From NCBI GenBank assembly GCA_020073665.1, contig JAIQEU010000004.1:248001-312000 (forward strand): a stretch of DNA of 64,000 bases. The letters run 5' to 3'. Numbering within the stretch: the stretch's first letter is position 1; each line of letters begins with the position of its first letter. The DNA comes from Terriglobia bacterium (GTDB taxonomy: Bacteria; Acidobacteriota; Terriglobia; Terriglobales; Acidobacteriaceae). A program made the position numbers and the translations under genes. The notes beneath the pieces are model-generated. The model worked only from the letters and a program-made list of their open reading frames with translations. It searched no databases and was not told the DNA's origin. This document shows positions 20,787 to 36,228 of this stretch, in pieces.

Positions 20787-21073
20787 GTCAGCTCTGTACT
20801 CTACCGTACCGCGGAACTGCCCTCGCCGCCTCGCGCGCGGGGGCGAAACCGCCAACCAGTTCCCCCCTGGTCGTCACCCCTCAAGCCTTTCGATTGCATT
20901 CACTTACGGGAACTCTCCGCAGTGGCTTTTCACCGCCCCTCCCGGTTACCAAAGTGTTTTGAAAAATCCGTAAGTTATTGTCTGGAAGCATCTTAGCTGA
21001 TATCACTAATCTCGATACCAAGCGCCTCGAGCTCCCTACTCCAGGCCAAGAAGGAGTCGGCGTTAGACGCCAC

Positions 21074-23833
21074 ATGTCTGGTCGCGGGCAGTCATGGAGG
21101 GACCTGACACTCGGCGCCAAGGTGTTTGTCGGCCTTGTCGTCATCGTAGGCACCGGTGTGCTTGTGTACGGTGCGGCCACCCCCACCAGCAAGAACATCG
21201 CAAAATTCATTTGCTATCTGCTGGTTGCCTTGCTGGCCTCTCGACTCAAAGTGGTTCTGCCCGGCATCACGGGCACCATGTCGGTGAATTTCCTGTTTAT
21301 CCTCCTGGGCGTCCTGGAACTCAGCTTTACAGAAACCCTGGTCTTGGGCACCGCGGCCATCCTGGTCCAGTGCTTCTACCAGGACCGACCCAGTGCGCTT
21401 CAGGTCACATTCAATATCTGCGCCAGTGCCTTCTCAATTGCAACCGTGTACGTGGTTTACCACGTGGCGCTGATTCGTGGCGAGATCAGCAACCATTCCT
21501 TGCTGCTGGTGATCGCGGCCGCCACATACTTTGTCGCCAACACCGGTTCCATCGCCGCGGTGATCGCTCTTTCCGAACGGAAATCGCTGCGCAGGGTCTG
21601 GGTGGAATGCTACTTCTGGTCGCTTCCCTACTACATGGTCGGGGCCGGCATCGCCGGCGGATTGGCCTGGTTCAACCGGGTATTCGATTGGGAAACTTCT
21701 CTGCTCAGCCTGCCGGCTGTCTACCTCATCTACCGCTCCTACCGCCTCTACCTGGGCAAACTTGAAGATGAGAAGCGGCACGTTGAGGAAATGGCCAACC
21801 TGCACATGCGCACGATTGAGGCCCTGGCTTTGGCCATTGAAGCCAAAGACCACACGACCCACGACCACCTGCAGCGAGTTCGCGTGTACGCCATCGAGGT
21901 GGCCAAGGAACTGGGGGTAAAGCCGGCTGAGATGGAAGCCTTGCACGCCGCCGCCTTGTTGCACGACATCGGCAAACTGGCGGTACCCGAGCACATCATT
22001 TCCAAGCCCGGCCGTCTGACTCCGGAAGAATTCGAGAAGATGAAAATCCACCCCGTGGTGGGCGCGGAAATTCTGGAGCGGGTGCGCTTTCCCTATCCGG
22101 TGGTGCCCATCGTTCGGGCGCACCACGAACGTTGGGACGGTTCGGGATATCCCTTTGGACTGAGTGGGGAGGAAATTCCCATCGGCGCGCGTATTCTTTC
22201 GGCGGTGGATTACCTGGACGCCCTGGCCTCCGACCGCCAGTACCGTCGCGCGCTGCCTTTGAAAGAGGTGATGGATCGGCTCGCTGCCGAGTCCGGCAAG
22301 TCCTTCGATCCTTTGGTGGTCGAGGTTCTACAGAAACGCTACTTGGACCTGGAAAAAGTGGTGGCCGCCCAGTTTGGGCACGACGTGGCCATGAAGCTAT
22401 CGACCGACGTGAAGGTAGAACGTGGCCTGGAGCCTGCCGCCGGGTTCGAAGACACTTCGGTGAAAGACGCTCCCGGCCAGGAAGCTACGTTCCTGTCCTC
22501 CATTGCGGCCGCTCGGCAGGAAGCGCAGACATTGTTTGAGCTGAGCCAGGACCTGGGAGCCTCGCTCAGCCTGGGCGAAACCCTTTCCGTGTTCTCGGTG
22601 AAGCTGCGGCGGCTGGTTCCGTATGACGCCATCGCGATCTATATCAAGCGCAACATGGAGTTGATCCCGGAACACGTGAGTGGCGACAACTTCCGCCTGT
22701 TCGCGTCCTTGCGCATTCCGCTTGGCCAGGGCCTCTCCGGGTGGGTGGCTCAGAACAAGAAACCGATCGTGAATGGCAATCCCTCGGTCGAACCGGGATA
22801 CCTGAATGATCCCACCAAGTTCAGCACCTTGCGCTCGGCACTGGCAGTGCCGCTGGAAGGCGTCACCGGCCTGATCGGCGTGCTTGCGCTGTACCACGCG
22901 GAGCGTGACTTTTTTACATCTGACCACTTGCGCATTCTGCTGGCCATCAGTTCCAAGATGGGCCTGGCCATTGAAAACGCCCTGAAGTACGAGCAAGCAG
23001 AGAGCTCCGCCACCACCGACTACCTGACCGGGTTGCCGAATGCCCGCTCGCTGTTCCTGCAACTGGACCGCGAACTGGCTCGCTGCAAGCGCGACACCTC
23101 AACCCTGACCGTGATGGTGTGTGACATGGACGGCTTCAAACAGATCAATGACCGCTTCGGCCACCTTGAGGGCAACCGCGTGCTGCGGCTCTTTGCCCAA
23201 GCGTTGAAGGAGAGCTGCCGCGAGTACGACTACGTGGCTCGCATGGGGGGAGACGAATTTGTGGTCGTGGCCCCGGGCCTGCCTGCCGAAGCGGCGGTGA
23301 AGAAGGCGGAGCAGTTACGCGAATTGGCCAAGCAAGCCGGCCGCGAGGTTTGTCGCGAAGACATTCTTTCTCTGAGTGTGGGGCAATCGTTGTATCCGGA
23401 AGACGGCCAGGATGCCGAGGCGCTGCTGGCCGAGGCTGACCGCCGCATGTACATCGAAAAGCAGCAACAGCCCTCGCGCAAGAACCGCCGCCTCTACCCG
23501 CGGATGAAATGCCGGGTCACCATTGAATTGCAACCCAAAACCGGCGAAGGGCCGGTCCTGGGCAATCTCATCGACATCAGCCTGGGCGGCTGCTACATCG
23601 AGACCAGCGCCATCCTGGCGCCGGGCACCAAGCTTAAGACCGTTTTCTCGATTGATGATGGCCGATTACAAACCGAAGGCACGGTGATTCGCATTGACCC
23701 TGGGTCCGGCGTCGCCGTTCAGTTTGATGAAATGAACCGCGAGGACCGGGAGAGTATGCACAAAATCCTCGAGTTCGTTCACAACACCACCATGTTTTAC
23801 GACAACCGCTACTTCGCGAAACTGAAGAGCTGA
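21074..23833 (+). CDS. Membrane c-di-GMP protein: HD-GYP, GAF, GGDEF and PilZ in one chain
   Basis: A 919-residue signalling protein. Residues 12-222 form a membrane sensor of about seven helices. The HD-GYP phosphodiesterase (about 240-430) has His297-Asp298 and GYP at 358-360. A GAF domain follows (about 485-640). The GGDEF cyclase (about 645-795) has an intact GGDEF at 725-729 and an RxxD inhibitory site (Arg716-Asp719). A PilZ domain (about 802-905) has the RLYPR (806-810) and DISLGG (834-839) c-di-GMP-binding motifs. Thus synthesis, breakdown and binding of c-di-GMP are all predicted. The ATG at 21074 is chosen; the frame opens at a TTG 96 bases upstream. Confidence 0.93.
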   Translation: MSGRGQSWRDLTLGAKVFVGLVVIVGTGVLVYGAATPTSKNIAKFICYLLVALLASRLKVVLPGITGTMSVNFLFILLGVLELSFTETLVLGTAAILVQCFYQDRPSALQVTFNICASAFSIATVYVVYHVALIRGEISNHSLLLVIAAATYFVANTGSIAAVIALSERKSLRRVWVECYFWSLPYYMVGAGIAGGLAWFNRVFDWETSLLSLPAVYLIYRSYRLYLGKLEDEKRHVEEMANLHMRTIEALALAIEAKDHTTHDHLQRVRVYAIEVAKELGVKPAEMEALHAAALLHDIGKLAVPEHIISKPGRLTPEEFEKMKIHPVVGAEILERVRFPYPVVPIVRAHHERWDGSGYPFGLSGEEIPIGARILSAVDYLDALASDRQYRRALPLKEVMDRLAAESGKSFDPLVVEVLQKRYLDLEKVVAAQFGHDVAMKLSTDVKVERGLEPAAGFEDTSVKDAPGQEATFLSSIAAARQEAQTLFELSQDLGASLSLGETLSVFSVKLRRLVPYDAIAIYIKRNMELIPEHVSGDNFRLFASLRIPLGQGLSGWVAQNKKPIVNGNPSVEPGYLNDPTKFSTLRSALAVPLEGVTGLIGVLALYHAERDFFTSDHLRILLAISSKMGLAIENALKYEQAESSATTDYLTGLPNARSLFLQLDRELARCKRDTSTLTVMVCDMDGFKQINDRFGHLEGNRVLRLFAQALKESCREYDYVARMGGDEFVVVAPGLPAEAAVKKAEQLRELAKQAGREVCREDILSLSVGQSLYPEDGQDAEALLAEADRRMYIEKQQQPSRKNRRLYPRMKCRVTIELQPKTGEGPVLGNLIDISLGGCYIETSAILAPGTKLKTVFSIDDGRLQTEGTVIRIDPGSGVAVQFDEMNREDRESMHKILEFVHNTTMFYDNRYFAKLKS

Positions 23834-24579: not shown

Positions 24580-25674
24580 CTAGAGCGTAAGCGACTGAAT
24601 CTGAACCAGGGGGACGCGAGCATGGGCGCCCGCTTTCCTGAGCATATTGGCAGAGGGAATGCCGGTGCGTCGGAACGACTTTTCACAATCGGCAGTCGAC
24701 GGGCCACGCATGCTGCCTTCCATGTAGGCCAGGCCCGGGCAACGGGTACAGGTGCCCACATGACTGCAAGTCGAGCAGACCGGCAAATCTTTAGCGTGAA
24801 TGGAGCGAACTTCATTCAGTTCGGGAGAATTCCGCCAGATATCCAGGAACCTCTGCCGCCGCACATTGCCGCTGGGCAGCGGAAACTGAACACAGGGAAA
24901 CACGTCGCCATAAGGCGTGATGTAGGCCGCCGTGTGACCGGCGCTGCAGGGATAGCCGTCCAGGACGTCGTCGCCCGGCGTGGGTGGAGGCGCACAAAAC
25001 TCCTCCACGTTGCCGACCAGAGCTTCGTTGTGGAACACCGACTCCAGTTCCGCGCCTGGGATGCGCAGGTTCAGGATGGATGTGTCGCCGTCCATCTTGG
25101 GCGTAATGGTCGGGTCCAGGGTATAGGTAGCTCCCAACTCCCGCGCCAGCGCCTGTACCCCGGCGTGGTCGCCGGTGTTGGCGGTCATCAGGACGTTGGC
25201 GATCGTGACCTTCAGCCCCTGGGATTTTATGAACCGAATCGCGTCCACGCTGCGCTTGAGCGAGCCTGGCAACTTCGTGATGGCATCGTGCACCGCGGGG
25301 CGATGCGAATACACGCTGATTTGCACCTGCTCCACGCCCAGCGCGCGCATGCGCTGCGCTTCCGCCTCGTGGATCATTACCCCGTTGGTCTTGATGCGAA
25401 CGTTGAATTGCAGCTTGCGGGCATGCTCCAGGATCTCGAAGAAATCGCGCCGCATCAGCACTTCGCCGCCGCTCAGCGTCAGAAAGAAAGTGCCGGCATC
25501 GGCCAACTGGTTGAGCACATCTTTGATCTCACTGGTAGTAAGCTCGCCGTGATCCTCGTGGTCCAGATAGCAGTGAACGCAGCGTTCGTTGCAGCGATAA
25601 GTGACGTCGAGATGGACCCCCAGGGGAACTCCCAGCTCCAGCGCCCGCTGGTTCATCTCCTCAATCAGGCTCAT
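24580..25674 (-). CDS. Radical SAM/SPASM peptide-modifying enzyme
   Basis: A 364-residue PqqE-like radical SAM enzyme. The SAM-binding [4Fe-4S] motif is Cys28-x3-Cys32-x2-Cys35 (TYRCNERCVHCYLD), followed by SGGEVLMR for SAM. The C-terminal SPASM region has Cys243, Cys261 (18 apart, around GHTAAYITPYGDVFP), Cys300, Cys303, Cys309, Cys312 and Cys330, enough for two auxiliary clusters. Such enzymes install C-C or thioether links in ribosomal peptides. Its ATG overlaps the PqqD-like stop as ATGA, so the two are translationally coupled. The likely substrate is the 56-residue peptide encoded at 27299-27469. It is the last gene of the cassette. Confidence 0.9.
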   Translation of the reverse strand: MSLIEEMNQRALELGVPLGVHLDVTYRCNERCVHCYLDHEDHGELTTSEIKDVLNQLADAGTFFLTLSGGEVLMRRDFFEILEHARKLQFNVRIKTNGVMIHEAEAQRMRALGVEQVQISVYSHRPAVHDAITKLPGSLKRSVDAIRFIKSQGLKVTIANVLMTANTGDHAGVQALARELGATYTLDPTITPKMDGDTSILNLRIPGAELESVFHNEALVGNVEEFCAPPPTPGDDVLDGYPCSAGHTAAYITPYGDVFPCVQFPLPSGNVRRQRFLDIWRNSPELNEVRSIHAKDLPVCSTCSHVGTCTRCPGLAYMEGSMRGPSTADCEKSFRRTGIPSANMLRKAGAHARVPLVQIQSLTL

Positions 25675-25988
25675 GCGGCTTCTCCCGGGCCAGAGGATGC
25701 GTTGTCAAACGGGCGGTCGGAAACCAGTAGGATACCGTGGCGCGAAAGCTCATCCACAAAGGCATCGACGTCAGCCCGTGCGACTTCCGGGTCAACTTCA
25801 AACTGATCACACACGGCTCGCACCACAATTTCGGACAAAGGCGTGCGCCCGTCGGCTGCCTGCCAGACCGCGGTAGCCACTTCGTTCAGCGTGAAAAAGG
25901 TCGAATCCACCGCCGACATGATCATCATCTCGCCCCCCAGTATGCGGGCGGCGATCTCCGTGCTTCGCGCAATGTAACGGTCACTCAT
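25671..25988 (-). CDS. PqqD-like peptide chaperone
   Basis: A 105-residue PqqD-family protein, the RiPP recognition element that binds the leader of a precursor peptide and presents it to the radical SAM partner. Family features include RILGGEMMIMSAVDSTFFTLNEVATAVWQAADG, split as the usual three-strand sheet followed by helices (shown here only as a region, residues about 15-48), and a C-terminal DVDAFVDELSRHGIL helix. The ATG overlaps the HprK-like stop as ATGA, and its own stop overlaps the radical SAM start. Confidence 0.87.
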   Translation of the reverse strand: MSDRYIARSTEIAARILGGEMMIMSAVDSTFFTLNEVATAVWQAADGRTPLSEIVVRAVCDQFEVDPEVARADVDAFVDELSRHGILLVSDRPFDNASSGPGEAA

Positions 25989-26785
25989 TGGATCAAATCC
26001 CAAACCCTTTGATCAGGGACAAACGTTAGCCGCTGTACCGGCACGCGGTCCACAAATTCACACGCCGAACGGAAAATCAGTTTCACCAGCTCCGCGTCCT
26101 CGGCAAAAAACAGGACATTGCGAAGCAGGCAGCGCGCCGCCTCCGCCGGATTCACCGGCTCGATCCTGTTCTCGGGCCCCTGGGCGAGGAAATACAACGT
26201 ACCGATTGGCGCCGAACAATTCTCTCCCACGCGCGCCAGTTCCCCGGCAAACGGAGTTCCGCAGGCAGAGTAGCCTTCGCCAGCCCGGCGGACGTAGGAA
26301 ATTTCATCGCTCAGCAGGATCGCATCCGGAGGCGCCAGCCGGGATATAGTAGTCTTTCCCGCGCCCGAGACTCCTGAGAAAAGGAATGCCCGGCCCTGGC
26401 GAATCGCGCTCGCCGCGTGCAGCAGGAATCCACCTTCCCGTGCCAGCACCAGCGTGTGCACGATGCGCAACACCGAGTCGATGGAATACGGGTTCGCCGT
26501 CTGGCGCACCCGGCCCCGGCGCAGCCGGGGATCCCACTGGGCACGGAAATCCCCGCGGCGCAAATGCCATTGGCCGCCCTGCATCTCTACGCGGACATCT
26601 TCATCTGAAGCCATCTCCGGGGACGGCGGAACCAGGTCAACATCCAGTTCAAAGCTGGGCTCGGCGGAAGCCCCGATGAAACCGGCGTAGCGGCTGGCCA
26701 GCAATTCGCGGAAGGAGGGGTCAGCGGTGCGCACGAGGATCGGCATGCCACCAATTTCAACCGCGATCTCGTGGCTAGAGCTCAT
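25985..26785 (-). CDS. HPr-kinase-like protein of a RiPP cassette
   Basis: A 266-residue protein related to the catalytic domain of HPr kinase/phosphorylase. It has the His-Ala-Ala-Ser segment at 123-126, a P-loop GVSGAGKTT (138-146) and the LLSDE Walker-B-like motif (157-161). The N-terminal 100 residues form an unassigned domain. HprK-like proteins of this type occur beside PqqD proteins in lasso-peptide and PEP-CTERM/exosortase loci; in paeninodin-type lasso clusters one phosphorylates a serine of the peptide. Here it may phosphorylate the precursor, which has serines, or serve another role. Its ATG follows the peptidase stop directly (TAGATG). Confidence 0.83.
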   Translation of the reverse strand: MSSSHEIAVEIGGMPILVRTADPSFRELLASRYAGFIGASAEPSFELDVDLVPPSPEMASDEDVRVEMQGGQWHLRRGDFRAQWDPRLRRGRVRQTANPYSIDSVLRIVHTLVLAREGGFLLHAASAIRQGRAFLFSGVSGAGKTTISRLAPPDAILLSDEISYVRRAGEGYSACGTPFAGELARVGENCSAPIGTLYFLAQGPENRIEPVNPAEAARCLLRNVLFFAEDAELVKLIFRSACEFVDRVPVQRLTFVPDQRVWDLIQ

Positions 26786-27289
26786 CTACACTACCGCTTG
26801 GTCGCCGGAAAACTCAAAACCAGAATTGAAATCGCGGCCCCGCCCGCGCCGCCGCAAGGCCAAGCGCTGGCAAAGGTTCGAATAGCCAAGTAACCGGGCC
26901 AACATCAGATCAAACCACGAGAGCCGACGTACAGGCGCGATGACCGAGCCGCCGCGGCGAATCCCAGTCACTCTTCCCAGCAACTCGCCCGGCTGGACCG
27001 GCGGGTCATTCTGAGGCATCGAATCGCCGCGTGTGAGCAGAAACACTGCCTTGCCCACGCCAGACTTCTTCACCGCCCGGTGGAGAAAAAAGCGTCCCTC
27101 CCGGAGGAAAAGCACGATCTCGCCGGGCTCCACCTGCTCAAAATCCTGGGATTGGATGGTGACTAGGTCTCCTGGCCACAAGGTCGGCAACATGCTGGTA
27201 CCCATGGCTCGGATGTGCAACGTCCCGCTGGACTGCAGGACCTCCGCCGCCAGGTTGCACCTGCTCTGTTCCCGCATTTGTGCGTCCAT
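26786..27289 (-). CDS. Soluble S26-type (Ser/His) peptidase-like protein
   Basis: A 167-residue protein with the signal-peptidase/LexA-like fold: GTSMLPTLWPGD (Ser32 nucleophile), then FFLHRAV with His70 where bacterial signal peptidase I has Lys, and TRGDSMPQNDPPV. The Ser/His pair resembles SipW/Sec11-type S26B enzymes. No hydrophobic anchor is present at either end, so it should be cytosolic, unlike normal signal peptidases. It lies nine bases after the precursor stop and is coupled to the HprK-like gene, so it is the best candidate leader peptidase. The basic C-terminal region (LALRRRGRGRDF) could bind the membrane. Confidence 0.83.
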   Translation of the reverse strand: MDAQMREQSRCNLAAEVLQSSGTLHIRAMGTSMLPTLWPGDLVTIQSQDFEQVEPGEIVLFLREGRFFLHRAVKKSGVGKAVFLLTRGDSMPQNDPPVQPGELLGRVTGIRRGGSVIAPVRRLSWFDLMLARLLGYSNLCQRLALRRRGRGRDFNSGFEFSGDQAVV

Positions 27290-27298
27290 GGGCAGCCG

Positions 27299-27469
27299 CT
27301 AGGATCTCTTCTGGTTCAGAATGCACTGACGCAGCTGGGGGTTAGTTTTCCCGCAGGACAAAGCCATGGTCTCAAACGCACGCTCAAAGCGGAATTCCGG
27401 CTTGTGATAAGGCTTCTTGCCGGCACTTCGTGCGCTCTTCGCTTCCTGTGATGCTGGCTTATGGCTCAT
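27299..27469 (-). CDS. Putative RiPP precursor peptide (56 residues, two cysteines)
   Basis: A short peptide at the head of the modification genes. Residues 1-20 are basic and low in complexity. A leader motif follows: Tyr21-x-x-Pro24-x-Phe26, close to the YxxPxL motif that PqqD-like proteins bind in lasso-peptide leaders. After FERAFETMALS comes a short core with Cys39-Gly-Lys-Thr-Asn-Pro and Cys49, ten residues apart, ending in Asn-Gln-Lys-Arg-Ser. The ATG at 27469 is chosen because it gives a normal leader; the frame is open upstream to 27616. Product structure is unknown: a thioether or other link at the cysteines is a guess. Confidence 0.72.
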   Translation of the reverse strand: MSHKPASQEAKSARSAGKKPYHKPEFRFERAFETMALSCGKTNPQLRQCILNQKRS

Positions 27470-27623
27470 AGAAATCCCAAAACGCTGAGTGGCTCGATAG
27501 CCTCGGCGACGCGCAAGTTGCCCCAGAACTTCCGGCCGGATAACGCAGTGTACAACAGACAGTCGGGGAAATGCGACCCGTAATTGCCATGCGGAAGTGT
27601 CGCGAAATTCGTGCAAAAAAAGC

Positions 27624-28433
27624 TCAATAGAAGGAGAGGGCTCCGTCGAGTCTCGCCCGTCGCAAAGCGTAGGAAAAAAGCAGCACGCTAAGCGGCAGCA
27701 GGATTAGGGCGAACCCAGCAAGGATAGCGATCTGCCGACTGAGTGTGGAGAAATCCGCCCCTCCCAGCAGCGCCAAGCGCATCCCATCCAGGGAATGCGT
27801 GATCGGAATCAACTGGGCGACCAGCCGGAGGGGGCGGGGTAGCGTGGTTACCGGGAAAAGCGTTCCCGTCATGAACCATGCCCCTGAGCCCAACAGCCAA
27901 ACCACAGCCGACCCCTTTTGCACCGCCAGCTGCAACGTAGCCGCGAACATGCCGATGGCGACGGCGATCGCGACTGAGAGCGCAAAAATCACCACGCATC
28001 CGCCAATATTGGGATGTGGTAGCGGCGCCCCGAACACCAGAAGCCCGGCACCCAGGTAGACCAGAAGTTGCACCGAGTTGCGGGCGAATGCCGAGATGGC
28101 GCTCAGGAACACCAGCACCGGCCCCGGCGTGGAGGTCGTCATCAAGATTTCCAGCGTGCCCGTCTGTTGTGCTTCCTGGACAATCTGCAGGAACGAGTTG
28201 ATGCCCATCAAGAGAAACGTATAGAAGCCAGTGCCCACCAGCAGGAAGGCGAAGTAGTCCAAGCCTTGCGGGCGGAAACCGGGACCGATGGCTCGCGCAA
28301 GATAATAAAAGGCCGCCAGTTCGCCCACGATGGCCGCTGCCGTCAGCAGAAAGCCGGTGCGGTAGCGGATGCCTGTCAAAATATCGCGACGCAGGATGGC
28401 CGCCATTTTGTCCAGCAGCGCAGAAAGCCTCAT
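27624..28433 (-). CDS. ABC-2 type transporter permease
   Basis: A 269-residue inner-membrane protein with six hydrophobic segments of the ABC-2 exporter type (about 27-47, 63-83, 110-132, 143-165, 176-196, 238-258). The EAQQTGTLEILMTT segment is the usual coupling region of this family. Its ATG overlaps the ATPase stop as ATGA. It is 154 bases upstream of the precursor gene, with no strong terminator between, so it probably exports the modified peptide. It may alternatively confer self-protection. Confidence 0.87.
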   Translation of the reverse strand: MRLSALLDKMAAILRRDILTGIRYRTGFLLTAAAIVGELAAFYYLARAIGPGFRPQGLDYFAFLLVGTGFYTFLLMGINSFLQIVQEAQQTGTLEILMTTSTPGPVLVFLSAISAFARNSVQLLVYLGAGLLVFGAPLPHPNIGGCVVIFALSVAIAVAIGMFAATLQLAVQKGSAVVWLLGSGAWFMTGTLFPVTTLPRPLRLVAQLIPITHSLDGMRLALLGGADFSTLSRQIAILAGFALILLPLSVLLFSYALRRARLDGALSFY

Positions 28434-29227
28434 GGGCAGCCCCTCGCCAGCAGCTGGGCGGATTCGTCTATTTCTCCAGTTGTCTGGAAGTAAAACGCTC
28501 GCAACTCCTCCACACTGGTCGCGGCAATCTTCCGGTATCCGGCGAGGCGATTGCGGTGCAGCACGGCCACGAAGTCCCCGACAGTGACGGCTTCGTTGAA
28601 ACTATGGGTGGCCAGGATGACCGTAGCACCCTGGCCAGGTAATCCGCGCACCAGATTCCAAAAGTGGGCGGCTGACGCGGGATCAAGACTGCGGGTGGGT
28701 TCGTCGAGCAGGATCACCGATGGCTGCTTAATCAGTGCGCGCGCAATGCCCAGCCGCTGGTACATGCCGCTGGAAAACTTCATCACCAGGGTGTCGGCGG
28801 CATCCTGCAATCCGGTGTGTTCCAGCATGGCATCGATGCGCCGGGCACGCGATTTGCGCGGAACTTCCTCCAGAGCGGCAAAAAAATCCAGGTTCTCCCG
28901 GGCCGACAAGCGCGGGAAGAACGACCTCTCTCCCGCCACTGCAAAGCCTACGTGCTTGCGAACCTGCTCTGGCTGCTGGCTGGTATCGGTGCCTTCGACC
29001 AGCACCCGGCCTGCATCCGGCAGCAACATGGTGGAAACCAGTTTGAGGGTTGTGGTCTTTCCGCTGCCGTTAGGGCCGAGCAACACCAGCACTTTCCCAT
29101 GCTGCACCGTGAGCGACAGTTCTTGCAGTGCGCGCGTTTCCCCACTCCGCTCGCGGCCCATCCAATTGAACAGAGCCGGGCGGTGCCGGAAGACTTTACT
29201 CACGGACTCGAGGACGATGCTGTCCAT
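28430..29227 (-). CDS. ABC transporter ATP-binding protein
   Basis: A 265-residue ATPase with a complete nucleotide-binding domain: Walker A GPNGSGKTT (51-59), signature FSSGMYQRLGIARAL, Walker B SVILLDEPTRSLD and a switch histidine in ILATHSFNEA. It powers the permease encoded next. As the first gene of the RiPP operon it has a promoter-like TATAAT 28-33 bases upstream of its ATG. The divergent nucleotidyltransferase-like gene shares the same 101-base gap. Confidence 0.9.
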   Translation of the reverse strand: MDSIVLESVSKVFRHRPALFNWMGRERSGETRALQELSLTVQHGKVLVLLGPNGSGKTTTLKLVSTMLLPDAGRVLVEGTDTSQQPEQVRKHVGFAVAGERSFFPRLSARENLDFFAALEEVPRKSRARRIDAMLEHTGLQDAADTLVMKFSSGMYQRLGIARALIKQPSVILLDEPTRSLDPASAAHFWNLVRGLPGQGATVILATHSFNEAVTVGDFVAVLHRNRLAGYRKIAATSVEELRAFYFQTTGEIDESAQLLARGCP

Positions 29228-29254
29228 GGATTAAGGATTGTCGAGAGTCTCTGT

Positions 29255-29260
29255 ATTATA
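29255..29260 (-). promoter_or_regulatory. Candidate -10 box for the RiPP cassette operon
   Basis: A perfect TATAAT on the minus strand (plus-strand ATTATA) lies 28 bases upstream of the ABC ATPase ATG, in the gap with the divergent nucleotidyltransferase-like gene. I see no consensus -35 at the right distance. It would drive ATPase, permease, precursor and the modification genes if they are one transcript. Confidence 0.4.
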
Positions 29261-29328
29261 GTGGCGGTTGTCATCCTCGACCGCGCCGCGGCGCAAGTTT
29301 GTGGCCCCCGTGGCAACTGGCCTGAAGC

Positions 29329-30522
29329 ATGTCGCCCGCAGCGCCCCAACCCGCCGCCTTCACTGGCTCCCGGACGCCTGGGCATACTTTCTCGCCTGAG
29401 TTCGACCTGTTGCTCGCCTGCTGCTCCGATTCACGGTATGGCCCGCACACCGACCGCCTACTGGAACTTCTCTCCCAGCCGATTGACTGGGACCGCATAC
29501 TCCAACTCGCCGAACATCATGGCGTGGTTCCGCACGTCTACGTTCGCCTCTCTGACGCGCAAGATTCGGTACCGGCCCCGGCGCTCGACCGGTTGCGCCA
29601 GCGCTACGAAGCCAACGCTCGCCAAGCGCTCTGGCTTACCCGCGAACTGTTTCGCATTCTTGAGCATTTAGGGGCGCGAGGGATTTCCGCATTGCCCTAC
29701 AAAGGGCCGGTGCTGGCCGGACTTCTGTACGGCGATGTGGTGCAGCGGCAGTTTGGCGATCTCGATCTATTCATTCACGCGGCAGACGTTCCCCGCGCGA
29801 AAGCGGCCGTCCTCGAATTGGGCTATCAGCACGGCTTGGGCCTCACTGCTCGGCAGGAGCGGGCTTACCTTCAGTCTGGATACGAGTACACATTCGACAG
29901 TTCGCATGGCCGCAACCTGCTGGAGATGCAATGGCAAGTCCTGCCCAGGTTTTACGCGGTTGACTTCGACATCAACGGCCTGTTCCAGCGGGCACAAGCG
30001 CTCGCCGTGAGTGGACGAACGCTGCAGACGCTTGGGAGAGAAGATCTTGTCCTGGTGCTCTGCGTTCATGCCGCAAAACACGCCTGGATTCAGCTTTCAT
30101 GGTTGTGCGACCTTGCAAGACTCGCCGAATCGCAGCCCATCCGCTGGGAAAATCTTCAGAGGGAAGCCAAACGTCTCGGCATCGAACGGGTCGTGAGCGT
30201 CAGCTTCCAGTTGGCACACCGACTGCTTGGCGCAGAGATTCCACCCCCGCTGCAGGCAGAGGCCGATCAGACAAAATCGCTTGCCAACCAGATTCTGCCG
30301 ATTCTCTCGGGAGGAACGGAAATCAATCCGGAGTCGATTCCCTATTTCAAGCTGATGATGGACGCACGAGAGCGTGGACGGGACCGGTTTCGGTTCCTAT
30401 GGCGTCTCGCAGTCACACCGGGGATAGGAGAATGGTCGGCCGTCCGGCTGCCCGCTGCCCTGTTCCCCCTTTATCGGGGCGTGCGCGCTGTTCGCCTGGC
30501 GGGAAGACTGTTCTCCCGCTAG
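29329..30522 (+). CDS. Nucleotidyltransferase-like protein (NTP_transf_5 type) of the RiPP cassette
   Basis: A 397-residue protein with the minimal nucleotidyltransferase core: Tyr-Lys-Gly-Pro at 124-127 followed by YGDVVQRQFGDLDLFI, with Asp144 and Asp146 as the metal-binding pair. The remainder is mostly helical and unassigned. This family is common in lasso-peptide, PqqD and PEP-CTERM loci, but its reaction is poorly known; adding a nucleotide or sugar-nucleotide to the product or a carrier is possible. It is divergent from the ABC genes and ends one base from the convergent alcohol dehydrogenase. Confidence 0.82.
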   Translation: MSPAAPQPAAFTGSRTPGHTFSPEFDLLLACCSDSRYGPHTDRLLELLSQPIDWDRILQLAEHHGVVPHVYVRLSDAQDSVPAPALDRLRQRYEANARQALWLTRELFRILEHLGARGISALPYKGPVLAGLLYGDVVQRQFGDLDLFIHAADVPRAKAAVLELGYQHGLGLTARQERAYLQSGYEYTFDSSHGRNLLEMQWQVLPRFYAVDFDINGLFQRAQALAVSGRTLQTLGREDLVLVLCVHAAKHAWIQLSWLCDLARLAESQPIRWENLQREAKRLGIERVVSVSFQLAHRLLGAEIPPPLQAEADQTKSLANQILPILSGGTEINPESIPYFKLMMDARERGRDRFRFLWRLAVTPGIGEWSAVRLPAALFPLYRGVRAVRLAGRLFSR

Positions 30523-33821: not shown

Positions 33822-34583
33822 TCAATCCGCAGTACCGCCCCCGTCGACCACCAACGAAGCCCCGGTCATGAAAGAAGAATCATCCGACGCGAGAAATAGC
33901 GCCGCTTTTGCAATCTCTTCGGCCGTGCCGATCCGGCCCAGCGGGCGGTTGCTGCACCCAGCCAGGTAGTCTTCCCACTTCATGCCGCGAAAGCGGGCAT
34001 CTTCCGGAAGCATCGGCGTTTCCACGTCTCCCGGGCAAATGCAATTCACGCGGATTCCCTGCCGCCCGTGATCGATGGCCATGGCCTTGGTCAGCAATAC
34101 CACGCCGCCCTTCGACGCGCAGTACGCCACTGCCGCGTCACCGCCCACGATGCCCCAACCCGAACTGTTGTTGATAATCACGCCGGCACCTTGCTTAATC
34201 ATGGAGGGTAAAGCAAATTTCGACATCAGGAATGTGCCCTTCAGGTTGATGTCAATCTGCAAGTCCCACTCTTCCTCGCTGCAATCGAGGGTGGTGTGGG
34301 CATAGAAGACGCCCGCATTGTTGAACAGGATATCGAGGCGGCCAAACGTGCGCAGGGTCTCATCCACCGCCCGGCGACACTCGTCGGCTTTACGCACGTC
34401 GGTGCGGATGAAGATGGCCTTGCCGCCAGCCTTCAGGATCTGCTCAGTCACGGCATGTCCGCGCTTCTCATCACGGCCGGTGATCGCGACCTTGGCGCCC
34501 TCCCTGGCGAACAGTAAGGCCGTGGCCTCGCCAATCCCCGAGGTCCCGCCGGTAATGAGAGCGACTTTGTCTTTGAGGCGCAT
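33822..34583 (-). CDS. Short-chain dehydrogenase/reductase (SDR 1 of 3)
   Basis: A 253-residue classical SDR: cofactor loop TGGTSGIGEA near residue 12, NNAG near 90, catalytic Ser in NNSSGWG and Tyr-Cys-Ala-Ser-Lys (YxxxK). The C-terminus ends in SLVVDGGGTAD, usual for this family. It is one of three adjacent SDRs in the same operon; an inverted-repeat element separates it from SDR 2. Substrate unknown, possibly a sugar or hydroxy acid. Confidence 0.9.
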   Translation of the reverse strand: MRLKDKVALITGGTSGIGEATALLFAREGAKVAITGRDEKRGHAVTEQILKAGGKAIFIRTDVRKADECRRAVDETLRTFGRLDILFNNAGVFYAHTTLDCSEEEWDLQIDINLKGTFLMSKFALPSMIKQGAGVIINNSSGWGIVGGDAAVAYCASKGGVVLLTKAMAIDHGRQGIRVNCICPGDVETPMLPEDARFRGMKWEDYLAGCSNRPLGRIGTAEEIAKAALFLASDDSSFMTGASLVVDGGGTAD

Positions 34584-34606
34584 GGGCGAAAATCAGCAAT
34601 TAGCAA

Positions 34607-34676
34607 TTAGCACTTGGCCCCTAAGGGCTTTGCGGGACGCGGCAAGGGCCTGTACTGGCTAAATGCCAAGTGCTAA
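34607..34676. repeat. Inverted-repeat element between two SDR genes
   Basis: The 12-base arms TTAGCACTTGGC (34607-34618) and 34665-34676 are perfect reverse complements; the left arm is preceded by repeated AGCAATTAGCAATTAG words. The right arm covers the TAG stop codon of SDR 2 (34673-34675). The rest of the 89-base gap shows nothing else. Confidence 0.7.
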
Positions 34677-35467
34677 GAGTTTCCAGCCAGCCCGCCGCCG
34701 TCCACGACCAATGCCGTTCCGGTAACGAATGACGACGCGTCACCTGCCAGATAAAGCGCGGCCTGCGCGATCTCTTCCGGCGTGCCCACGCGACCGAGTG
34801 GCCGTCGCGCTGCTTCCGCCAGAAAGCGATCGCTGGGCTCGCCTAACTGCTGGGCTTCGTTGCGCAGCATGGCGGTATCGGTATCACCCGGGCAGATGCA
34901 GTTTACGCGAATCTTCTGCGGACCGTGATCAATCGCCATCGCCTTGGTCAAAAGCACCACCGCGCCTTTTGAAGCACAATACACTGCCGCCCTGGGCCCG
35001 CCCGCCAGACCCCATCCCGATGCCATATTGATGATTGATCCGCCCCCCGCCTTCGCCATGATCGGGATGACCTGCTTGGAAAGCAGGAAGATGGATTTCA
35101 CGTTGACCGCCATGACCCGGTCCCAGTCTGCCTCGCTAAGCTCAACCACCGAGGCGCGCCGAATGATGCCAGCGTTGTTGAACAGCGAATGAATCGCGCC
35201 AAATTCGTCGGTCACGCGATCCACTACACGGCGGCAATCGGCGGCGCGCGTCACGTCGCCAGGTTCGAAGATGGCTTCGCCGCCATTCTGTTTGATTTCA
35301 AGGGCAACCGCCTGCCCGCCTTGCTCGTTCAAGTCGGTAATGGCAATCGCCGCGCCTTCGCGAGCGAAAAGAAGCGCCGTGGCACGCCCGATGCCGGACG
35401 CGCCGCCGGTAATCAGCGCAATCTTGCCAGTCAGTTTGCCGTTAGGTGTCTTGCTGGAGTTGGCCAT
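34673..35467 (-). CDS. Short-chain dehydrogenase/reductase (SDR 2 of 3)
   Basis: A 264-residue classical SDR with TGGASGIGRA (cofactor loop), DLNEQGGQAV after the second strand, NNAGIIRRASVVE, catalytic Ser in NMASGWG and YCASK. It is closely similar in layout to SDR 1 (both share HG-RVNCICPGD), so the pair probably arose by duplication. Its stop codon lies within an inverted-repeat arm. It starts 8 bases after the SDR 3 stop. Confidence 0.9.
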   Translation of the reverse strand: MANSSKTPNGKLTGKIALITGGASGIGRATALLFAREGAAIAITDLNEQGGQAVALEIKQNGGEAIFEPGDVTRAADCRRVVDRVTDEFGAIHSLFNNAGIIRRASVVELSEADWDRVMAVNVKSIFLLSKQVIPIMAKAGGGSIINMASGWGLAGGPRAAVYCASKGAVVLLTKAMAIDHGPQKIRVNCICPGDTDTAMLRNEAQQLGEPSDRFLAEAARRPLGRVGTPEEIAQAALYLAGDASSFVTGTALVVDGGGLAGNS

Positions 35468-35475
35468 GTGGAGGA

Positions 35476-36228
35476 TTATCGCCCGGCCAGGCTTCCCGCA
35501 GTTTCTGCGCCGTCGATGGTGTACACCTGCCCGGTCATGTAAGCCGCATCATCCGAAGCGAGAAATGCGAACAGCGCCGCGATCTCCTCCGGCTTCGCGT
35601 GCCTGCGCAGAGGAATTTTGCTGTTTACCTCATCGAGCATGGCGTCGGTGTACTCGGCGCGCTGCATGGGGGTAAGCACGTATCCCGGCGCCACCGCGCA
35701 TACCCGGATTTTCGGCGCCAGTTCCAGCGCCATGGACTTGGTCAGTTCGATCACGCCCGCCTTGGTGGCGTTGTAGTCGGCATAGTAGGGATAGCCCATC
35801 ACGCCATTGGTCGATGCCGTCTGCAGAATTACACCGCTGCCCCGCTCCCACATGTGCCGGGCCGCGGTCTGGGCCACGTAGAATACGCCCGTCAGGTTCA
35901 CCGCAATGACTTTGTCCCACTCTTCCGGCGTGATATCGAGGAAGTTATGGCGAATGCTGATGCCGGCGTTGTTGACCAGCACGTCCACACCGCCCATCAT
36001 TTGGATGGCTTCGGCAAACGCCGCCTGCACTTGCTTCAAGTTGGAAACATCGGCGTCCACAGCTCCCGCCAGCGCGGGCAACTGGCGCTGGATTTCGGCC
36101 CGTGCTTTGCCGTCGCGGTCGAGCACGCATACCGCTGAACCCTCTTCTAGAAAGCGGGCGGCGGTGGCCGCGCCAATGCCGCTGGCGCCACCGGTGATAA
36201 GCACACGTTTCCCTTTGAGACCTCGCAT
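35476..36228 (-). CDS. Short-chain dehydrogenase/reductase (SDR 3 of 3)
   Basis: A 250-residue classical SDR: TGGASGIGAA, LDRDGKARAE, NNAGISIRHNF, catalytic Ser in QTASTNG and Tyr-Asn-Ala-Thr-Lys. It is more distant from SDR 1 and 2 than those are from each other; it resembles sugar-acid or glucose-type dehydrogenases. It is separated from the upstream DUF155 gene by 8 bases, so the genes probably form one transcript. Confidence 0.9.
   Translation of the reverse strand: MRGLKGKRVLITGGASGIGAATAARFLEEGSAVCVLDRDGKARAEIQRQLPALAGAVDADVSNLKQVQAAFAEAIQMMGGVDVLVNNAGISIRHNFLDITPEEWDKVIAVNLTGVFYVAQTAARHMWERGSGVILQTASTNGVMGYPYYADYNATKAGVIELTKSMALELAPKIRVCAVAPGYVLTPMQRAEYTDAMLDEVNSKIPLRRHAKPEEIAALFAFLASDDAAYMTGQVYTIDGAETAGSLAGR

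Follow-up and report, generated by a model that had tools for sequence, protein, structure and literature searches.

The linear polyphosphorylated peptides (LPP) of Bacillota come from a gene set that comprises a SipW-like leader peptidase, a recognition element (RRE) for ribosomally synthesised and post-translationally modified peptides (RiPPs), an HprK-like kinase, a nucleoside triphosphate (NTP) transferase and an exporter, with no cyclase (Popov et al. 2026, PMC13381572). In this system, which has been reported as restricted to Bacillota and whose exporter is MsbA-like, the RRE binds a YxxP motif, the kinase phosphorylates a core Ser, and the SipW-like peptidase (Ser29, His68, Asp93) cleaves after F-E-T, the precursor being poorly cut when it is not phosphorylated (PMC13381572). 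In lasso peptide pathways, HprK-like kinases have been proven to act on the C-terminal Ser, and attaching a hexose to the phosphate of phosphorylated lasso peptides requires a PsmN-type protein (review PMC9266682). Here we analyse a cassette from the genome of an acidobacterial soil bacterium (Terriglobia bacterium, assembly GCA_020073665.1), encoded within a stretch of 64,000 nucleotides (nt) of contig JAIQEU010000004.1 that we call the window, in which such helper genes stand beside a radical S-adenosylmethionine (SAM)/SPASM enzyme. We put at roughly 70% the probability that this operon makes a RiPP, namely a phosphopeptide of the LPP kind that also undergoes a radical SAM modification.

Comparison with described pathways

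The cassette shares with LPP loci the YxxP leader, FET at the predicted cut site, a SipW-like Ser-His-Asp leader peptidase, a discrete RRE (PF05402), an HprK-like kinase and, in about half of its loci, an NTP transferase (PF14907); the lasso cyclase and B2 protease are absent in both. It departs from them in its radical SAM/SPASM enzyme, of which LPP loci have none, in a core with two invariant Cys, and in a beta-propeller partner. Set against the LPP motif YxxPxVLxHQxIxFETxxS, the 74 precursor relatives that we collected keep YxxP throughout (74/74) and end their leader with FET or FVT in 67 cases, while the middle differs and the core Ser3 is absent.

Lasso pathways of the paeninodin and pseudomycoidin type resemble the cassette in their HprK-like kinase, the conserved C-terminal Ser of the precursor and the NTP transferase PsmN (PMC9266682), but the cassette has neither their cyclase nor their B2 cysteine protease, and holds a radical SAM enzyme and a serine leader peptidase. 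A sequence-only reading of the window had described just this, a lasso-like helper set without the lasso cyclase and protease, and the genome bears it out: there is no lasso cyclase beside the precursor, Asn_synthase (PF00733) matches are confined to other contigs, and the B2 protease family PF13471 has zero matches in the whole genome. Two pairs of asparagine-synthetase-like genes occur in this genome, at G000:C27:38293-43744 and G000:C2:76206-80290. The SynChlorMet system (NCBIfam ScmC/D/E/F) likewise unites HprK-like (ScmC), PqqD-like (ScmD) and radical SAM/SPASM proteins; however, its models name two radical SAM enzymes against one here, the cassette adds an S26 peptidase, and all cassette scores fall far below the model cut-offs (ScmC 46 bits against 125, ScmD 28 against 100, ScmE 108 against 400, ScmF 70 against 400).

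The cassette, then, lacks some defining features of each of LPP, lasso and SynChlorMet systems. The earlier proposal of an undescribed RiPP class has to be narrowed, considering that the helper set is already that of LPP in Bacillota (PMC13381572); what appears new is that it is combined with a radical SAM/SPASM maturase, that the two-Cys core ends in an invariant Ser, and that a beta-propeller is linked to the cassette. A literature search, which took in few subscription journals and is weak evidence of novelty, found no paper joining radical SAM, HprK and RiPP. On our reading, one compact, widespread operon would bring together the radical SAM modification of peptides and their HprK-type phosphorylation, and serine (SipW-like) leader peptidases would extend to another phylum.

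A recurrent cassette in Acidobacteriota

The gene content proposed in the sequence-only reading stands: all named reading frames are intact, on the minus strand except for the divergent plus-strand NTP_transf_5 gene (Table 1), their Pfam families score above cut-offs (PF04055 and PF13186, PF05402, PF00717, PF14907), and the kinase has a predicted HprK-like fold. So do the junctions it listed, TAGATG between the S26 and HprK genes and ATGA at both HprK/PqqD and PqqD/radical SAM; the ATPase and permease genes of the ATP-binding cassette (ABC) exporter also share an ATGA overlap. Its single minus-strand group holds only in part. A gap of 154 nt separates the exporter pair from the precursor downstream and the NTP_transf_5 gene is divergent, so the tight operon extends from the precursor to the radical SAM gene (27469 down to 24580).

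A scan of species genomes with a radical SAM alignment returned 253 relatives, and our locus counts rest on the best 80. Nearly all of these are from Acidobacteriota (the labels Nevskia and Burkholderiales on two of the 80 records are possible misassignments), and their commonest order is precursor, S26 peptidase, HprK-like kinase, PqqD (RRE) and radical SAM/SPASM, with overlapping junctions. Where at least 2.5 kb lies upstream (68 loci), PqqD is found in 67, the S26 peptidase in 66, HprK in 64 and a precursor in 62. Median gaps between cassette genes range from -4 to +10 nt, an overlap of -4 nt being typical, and in most of 78 loci the radical SAM gene overlaps PqqD or directly adjoins it downstream (median -4 nt). 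Because gene order and junctions are repeated across dozens of genomes, the cassette is not a product of chance; both the gene set and a related small peptide at the same position, by which the earlier reading could be checked, are conserved in the phylum, and more widely than that reading could see. The ABC exporter and the NTP_transf_5 gene are common, not constant, members, the latter lying near the cassette in 25/46 well-covered loci.

Of 297 genomes of the phylum searched with the precursor, six have clear relatives, all in the same family and including the window's own, and a weak relative comes from a distant family. Most of the surrounding loci match the window's in gene content and order, and one genome has a split set, with the precursor and ABC genes at one place and HprK-PqqD-radical SAM at another. 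Two weak precursor matches (L030, L033) were dismissed as chance frames lacking cassette genes. Exactly seven of 396 phylum genomes score above 300 bits with an HprK profile, namely those six in which the precursor is clear, and G006, whose weaker precursor match lies in the same gene cluster; these scores are partly so by construction, because six of the seven genomes are in the profile. The G006 locus (L029, 7649-13171) is a distant form of the cassette; a gene for a B12-binding radical SAM protein separates its precursor from the S26 peptidase, which suggests an extra methylation-type step. Neither viral contigs searched with the precursor nor plasmids searched with HprK yielded a relative.

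Beyond these genomes, the set HprK-PqqD-radical SAM is also seen in distant families of the phylum. HprK-radical SAM loci occur in many other Acidobacteriota families (L187-L206), most with PqqD, and encode small precursors alike in style (for example KKPYEKP...EARA..C...C...S); 17/18 of these end in Ser, making HprK-PqqD-radical SAM with a Ser-ending peptide a phylum-wide theme. Two of the loci (L193, L194) carry two precursors in tandem. In another genome (G073; L027, 9208-9690), a second precursor copy is intact beyond the first Cys-Gly-Lys and has lost the usual ending, and is likely a decayed gene.

The precursor and its proposed maturation

In all 74 relatives the precursor keeps six residues (Y, P, F, A, C, K) of the 21-residue block YxxPxxxxxxxFxxxAxxCxK, a second Cys separated from the first by 8-11 residues, and a C-terminal Ser; the pattern that found 67 of the 74 left the Lys, second Cys and Ser free. 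One relative (L022) aligns from residue 1, in keeping with the start chosen here. Considering that the rest of the tail varies (median similarity 0.39) and that the third base of the final Ser codon is free, with TCC, TCA, TCG and TCT all used, the C-terminal Ser is apparently under selection. It is also the only invariant Ser; core position 3 is Leu (Val once), and the Ser3 of LPP is for this reason not the target here.

From gene content, conservation, motifs, co-occurrence and predicted folds we infer the following reactions, and their order. The PqqD-like RRE would first bind YHKP in the 56-residue precursor and present it to the enzymes, whereupon the radical SAM/SPASM enzyme would modify the core around Cys-x-Lys...Cys. 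Next, the HprK-like kinase would place phosphate on the C-terminal Ser, perhaps more than once, for possible decoration by the NTP_transf_5 protein. Cleavage after FET, between T34 and M35, by the SipW-like serine peptidase would free the core, which the ABC-2 exporter would carry out, and outside the cytoplasm the core may work with a dedicated, secreted eight-bladed beta-propeller whose gene lies near the cassette in many relatives. The predicted product is a 22-residue peptide, MALSCGKTNPQLRQCILNQKRS, with modification at Cys/Lys and phosphate on the final Ser; as the predicted core is short and the enzymes are defined, this chemistry is testable by co-expression in E. coli.

The peptidase scores 47 bits with the archaeal signal peptidase model TIGR02228, below its cut-off of 51.85. 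Its S32, H70 and D95 are conserved in 73-74 of 74 sequences, at spacings of 38 and 25 residues compared with 39 and 25 in LppS (S29/H68/D93). For the HprK-like protein, Pfam makes no call and the best NCBIfam match, ScmC, is below cut-off. Its predicted fold (predicted local distance difference test, pLDDT, 90) matches PEPCK and HPr kinase structures, more clearly than does its sequence profile, which finds only weak P-loop and PEPCK matches among solved structures. The P-loop, His and Asp-Glu positions are kept: H123, G138, S140, D160 and E161 are invariant across 55 sequences, and G143, K144 and T145 are conserved in at least 90%. Five cassettes offer a natural test of the link between kinase and cassette, and support it: they have no adjacent HprK, and all five genomes (5/5) hold a cassette-type HprK elsewhere, at 335-417 bits, each adjoining another precursor or PqqD. 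A kinase kept elsewhere when it is not adjacent suggests a primary role.

The radical SAM enzyme

Relatives of the radical SAM enzyme conserve the CxxxCxxC motif (CNERCVHC) and the SPASM cysteines, and those of the cassettes form one clade with 100/100 support (in a tree without characterised enzymes), adjoining the phylum's other radical SAM enzymes that are associated with HprK. The enzyme scores below every NCBIfam family cut-off; the earlier reading had set as a check whether the enzyme groups with a family of known different substrate, and clade and score come out in its favour. It has the SPASM architecture of PqqE and of sactipeptide maturases such as SkfB and AlbA, which differ in their helper genes. 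Of the possible reactions around the invariant Cys-x-Lys...Cys, where we expect the enzyme to act, a Cys thioether crosslink is favoured.

Could the product then be a sactipeptide- or ranthipeptide-type bacteriocin, with Cys thioethers made by the radical SAM enzyme, and HprK and NTP_transf_5 as secondary tailoring only? The two invariant Cys, the exporter of window-type loci and the profile match to the sactisynthase SkfB (4.7e-27), the nearest of the solved structures, would all fit. However, the named sactipeptide and ranthipeptide maturase models score below their cut-offs (SkfB 67 bits against 300, AlbA 71 against 850, StsB 96 against 625), no immunity gene was recognised, and the displaced kinases suggest more than secondary tailoring; we regard this as improbable, if still the strongest of the alternatives. 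The GeoRSP models are also below cut-off (PqqD 39 bits against 100, radical SAM 120 against 400).

A secreted beta-propeller as putative partner

In many loci, L038 and L087 of Granulicella mallensis among them, a secreted propeller protein of ~600-900 residues adjoins the cassette. Its gene lies on one of two sides, a short way upstream of the precursor (usually by 5-45 nt) or beyond the radical SAM gene, downstream of it. No such gene lies within the window, and that of the window's own genome is on another contig; exporter and propeller at the same locus are rare. Across 60 genomes of the family, one per genus, the propeller is present in 14/16 with the cassette and 1/44 without, the latter being a genome that is 76% complete (p = 1e-10, which is optimistic because genomes share ancestry). 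Pfam finds zero domains in the protein, which is modelled as an eight-bladed beta-propeller (pLDDT 74) with designed propellers, YxaL and BamB as top fold matches. An apparent propeller-precursor fusion at L094 proved to be a frame effect: the propeller's ending is legible in a different frame, where it terminates a few dozen bases before the precursor ATG.

It is tempting to see the radical-SAM-modified, C-terminally phosphorylated two-Cys peptide as a dedicated ligand or small subunit of the propeller, the two forming an extracellular device of a new Acidobacteriota RiPP class and not a free antibiotic, though we hold this idea only tentatively. What phosphorylated RiPPs do is unknown (PMC13381572), and a specific, conserved secreted partner would offer a direct handle on it.

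Or might the cassette serve the propeller, making for it a cofactor derived from the peptide, or a small crosslinked subunit, and not a free secreted phosphopeptide, on the pattern of pyrroloquinoline quinone (PQQ) or of QhpC, a subunit of quinohemoprotein amine dehydrogenase? The tight genomic and phyletic link would suit this, as would the pairing of PqqD with a SPASM enzyme, which is of the PQQ type, and a propeller fold that PQQ enzymes share with many other proteins. Against it, the top fold matches are not dehydrogenases, the orphan propeller loci that we examined have no common oxidoreductase or other obvious partner, and the invariant C-terminal Ser and its kinase would go unexplained, making this somewhat less credible again than a bacteriocin. 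Least credible is a derived lasso or LPP locus that makes a plain phosphopeptide beside an unrelated radical SAM neighbour: phosphorylated lasso peptides and LPP do have this helper set (PMC13381572, PMC9266682), yet the radical SAM gene is tightly joined to PqqD in most loci, HprK-PqqD-radical SAM recurs in distant families, and the invariant Cys and Lys would have no obvious use.

Several points temper our preference for a phosphopeptide with a radical SAM modification. The pathway is a prediction from genes, many loci are metagenome bins that end at contig ends, and the relatives share ancestry, so that 74/74 does not equal 74 independent events. The Cys pair could form a disulfide, or the radical SAM enzyme could act on the Lys or elsewhere. 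Something other than phosphorylation, export or binding for example, could account for the retention of the C-terminal Ser, and the propeller's role is an association only. The departures from LPP count here too: the phosphorylated Ser is core residue 3 there and would be the last residue here; the exporter is an ABC-2 permease and ATPase, or none is nearby, in place of an MsbA-like protein; and a system reported only from Bacillota would have its counterpart in Acidobacteriota.

Features of the locus and its neighbours

Table 1. Cassette features in the window, by position (position 1 is the first letter of the window).
Feature	Coordinates	Strand	Basis or remarks
Radical SAM/SPASM enzyme	24580..25674	-	PF04055 1e-22, PF13186 2e-13; CNERCVHC motif
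PqqD-like RRE (peptide chaperone)	25671..25988	-	PF05402 3.7e-17
HprK-like kinase, predicted C-terminal Ser kinase	25985..26785	-	ScmC-like, 46 bits; PEPCK/HprK fold
S24/S26 peptidase, S26B (SipW/archaeal-type), predicted leader peptidase	26786..27289	-	PF00717
Precursor peptide, 56 residues, MSHKPASQEAKSARSAGKKPYHKPEFRFERAFETMALSCGKTNPQLRQCILNQKRS	27299..27469	-	74 relatives, same place in homologous loci
Predicted leader, residues 1-34	27368..27469	-	YHKP (27398-27409) as RRE-binding motif; FET at end
Predicted core, MALSCGKTNPQLRQCILNQKRS, residues 35-56	27302..27367	-	Cys39, Lys41, Cys49, Ser56 (27302-27304)
ABC-2 exporter permease	27624..28433	-	PF12698/PF01061; occurs in window-type loci
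ABC exporter ATPase	28430..29227	-	PF00005 4.7e-34
Divergent intergenic region, 101 nt	29228..29328	.	both promoters likely here, from gene order alone
NTP_transf_5 protein (PsmN/LppN-type helper)	29329..30522	+	PF14907 1.5e-62

A gene for an HD-GYP/GGDEF/PilZ-like protein (20978-23833, plus strand) lies downstream of the cassette, as it does in ~21 of the 80 loci, almost only those of the ABC-exporter type, and looks like a shared chromosomal site and not part of the pathway. Exopolysaccharide-type genes stand near some cassettes (L023, 815-5835, and also L078, L087 and L105), much as capsule loci surround the clusters for LPP and paeninodin. Elsewhere in the window, three short-chain dehydrogenase-like genes follow one another on the minus strand (33822-36228).

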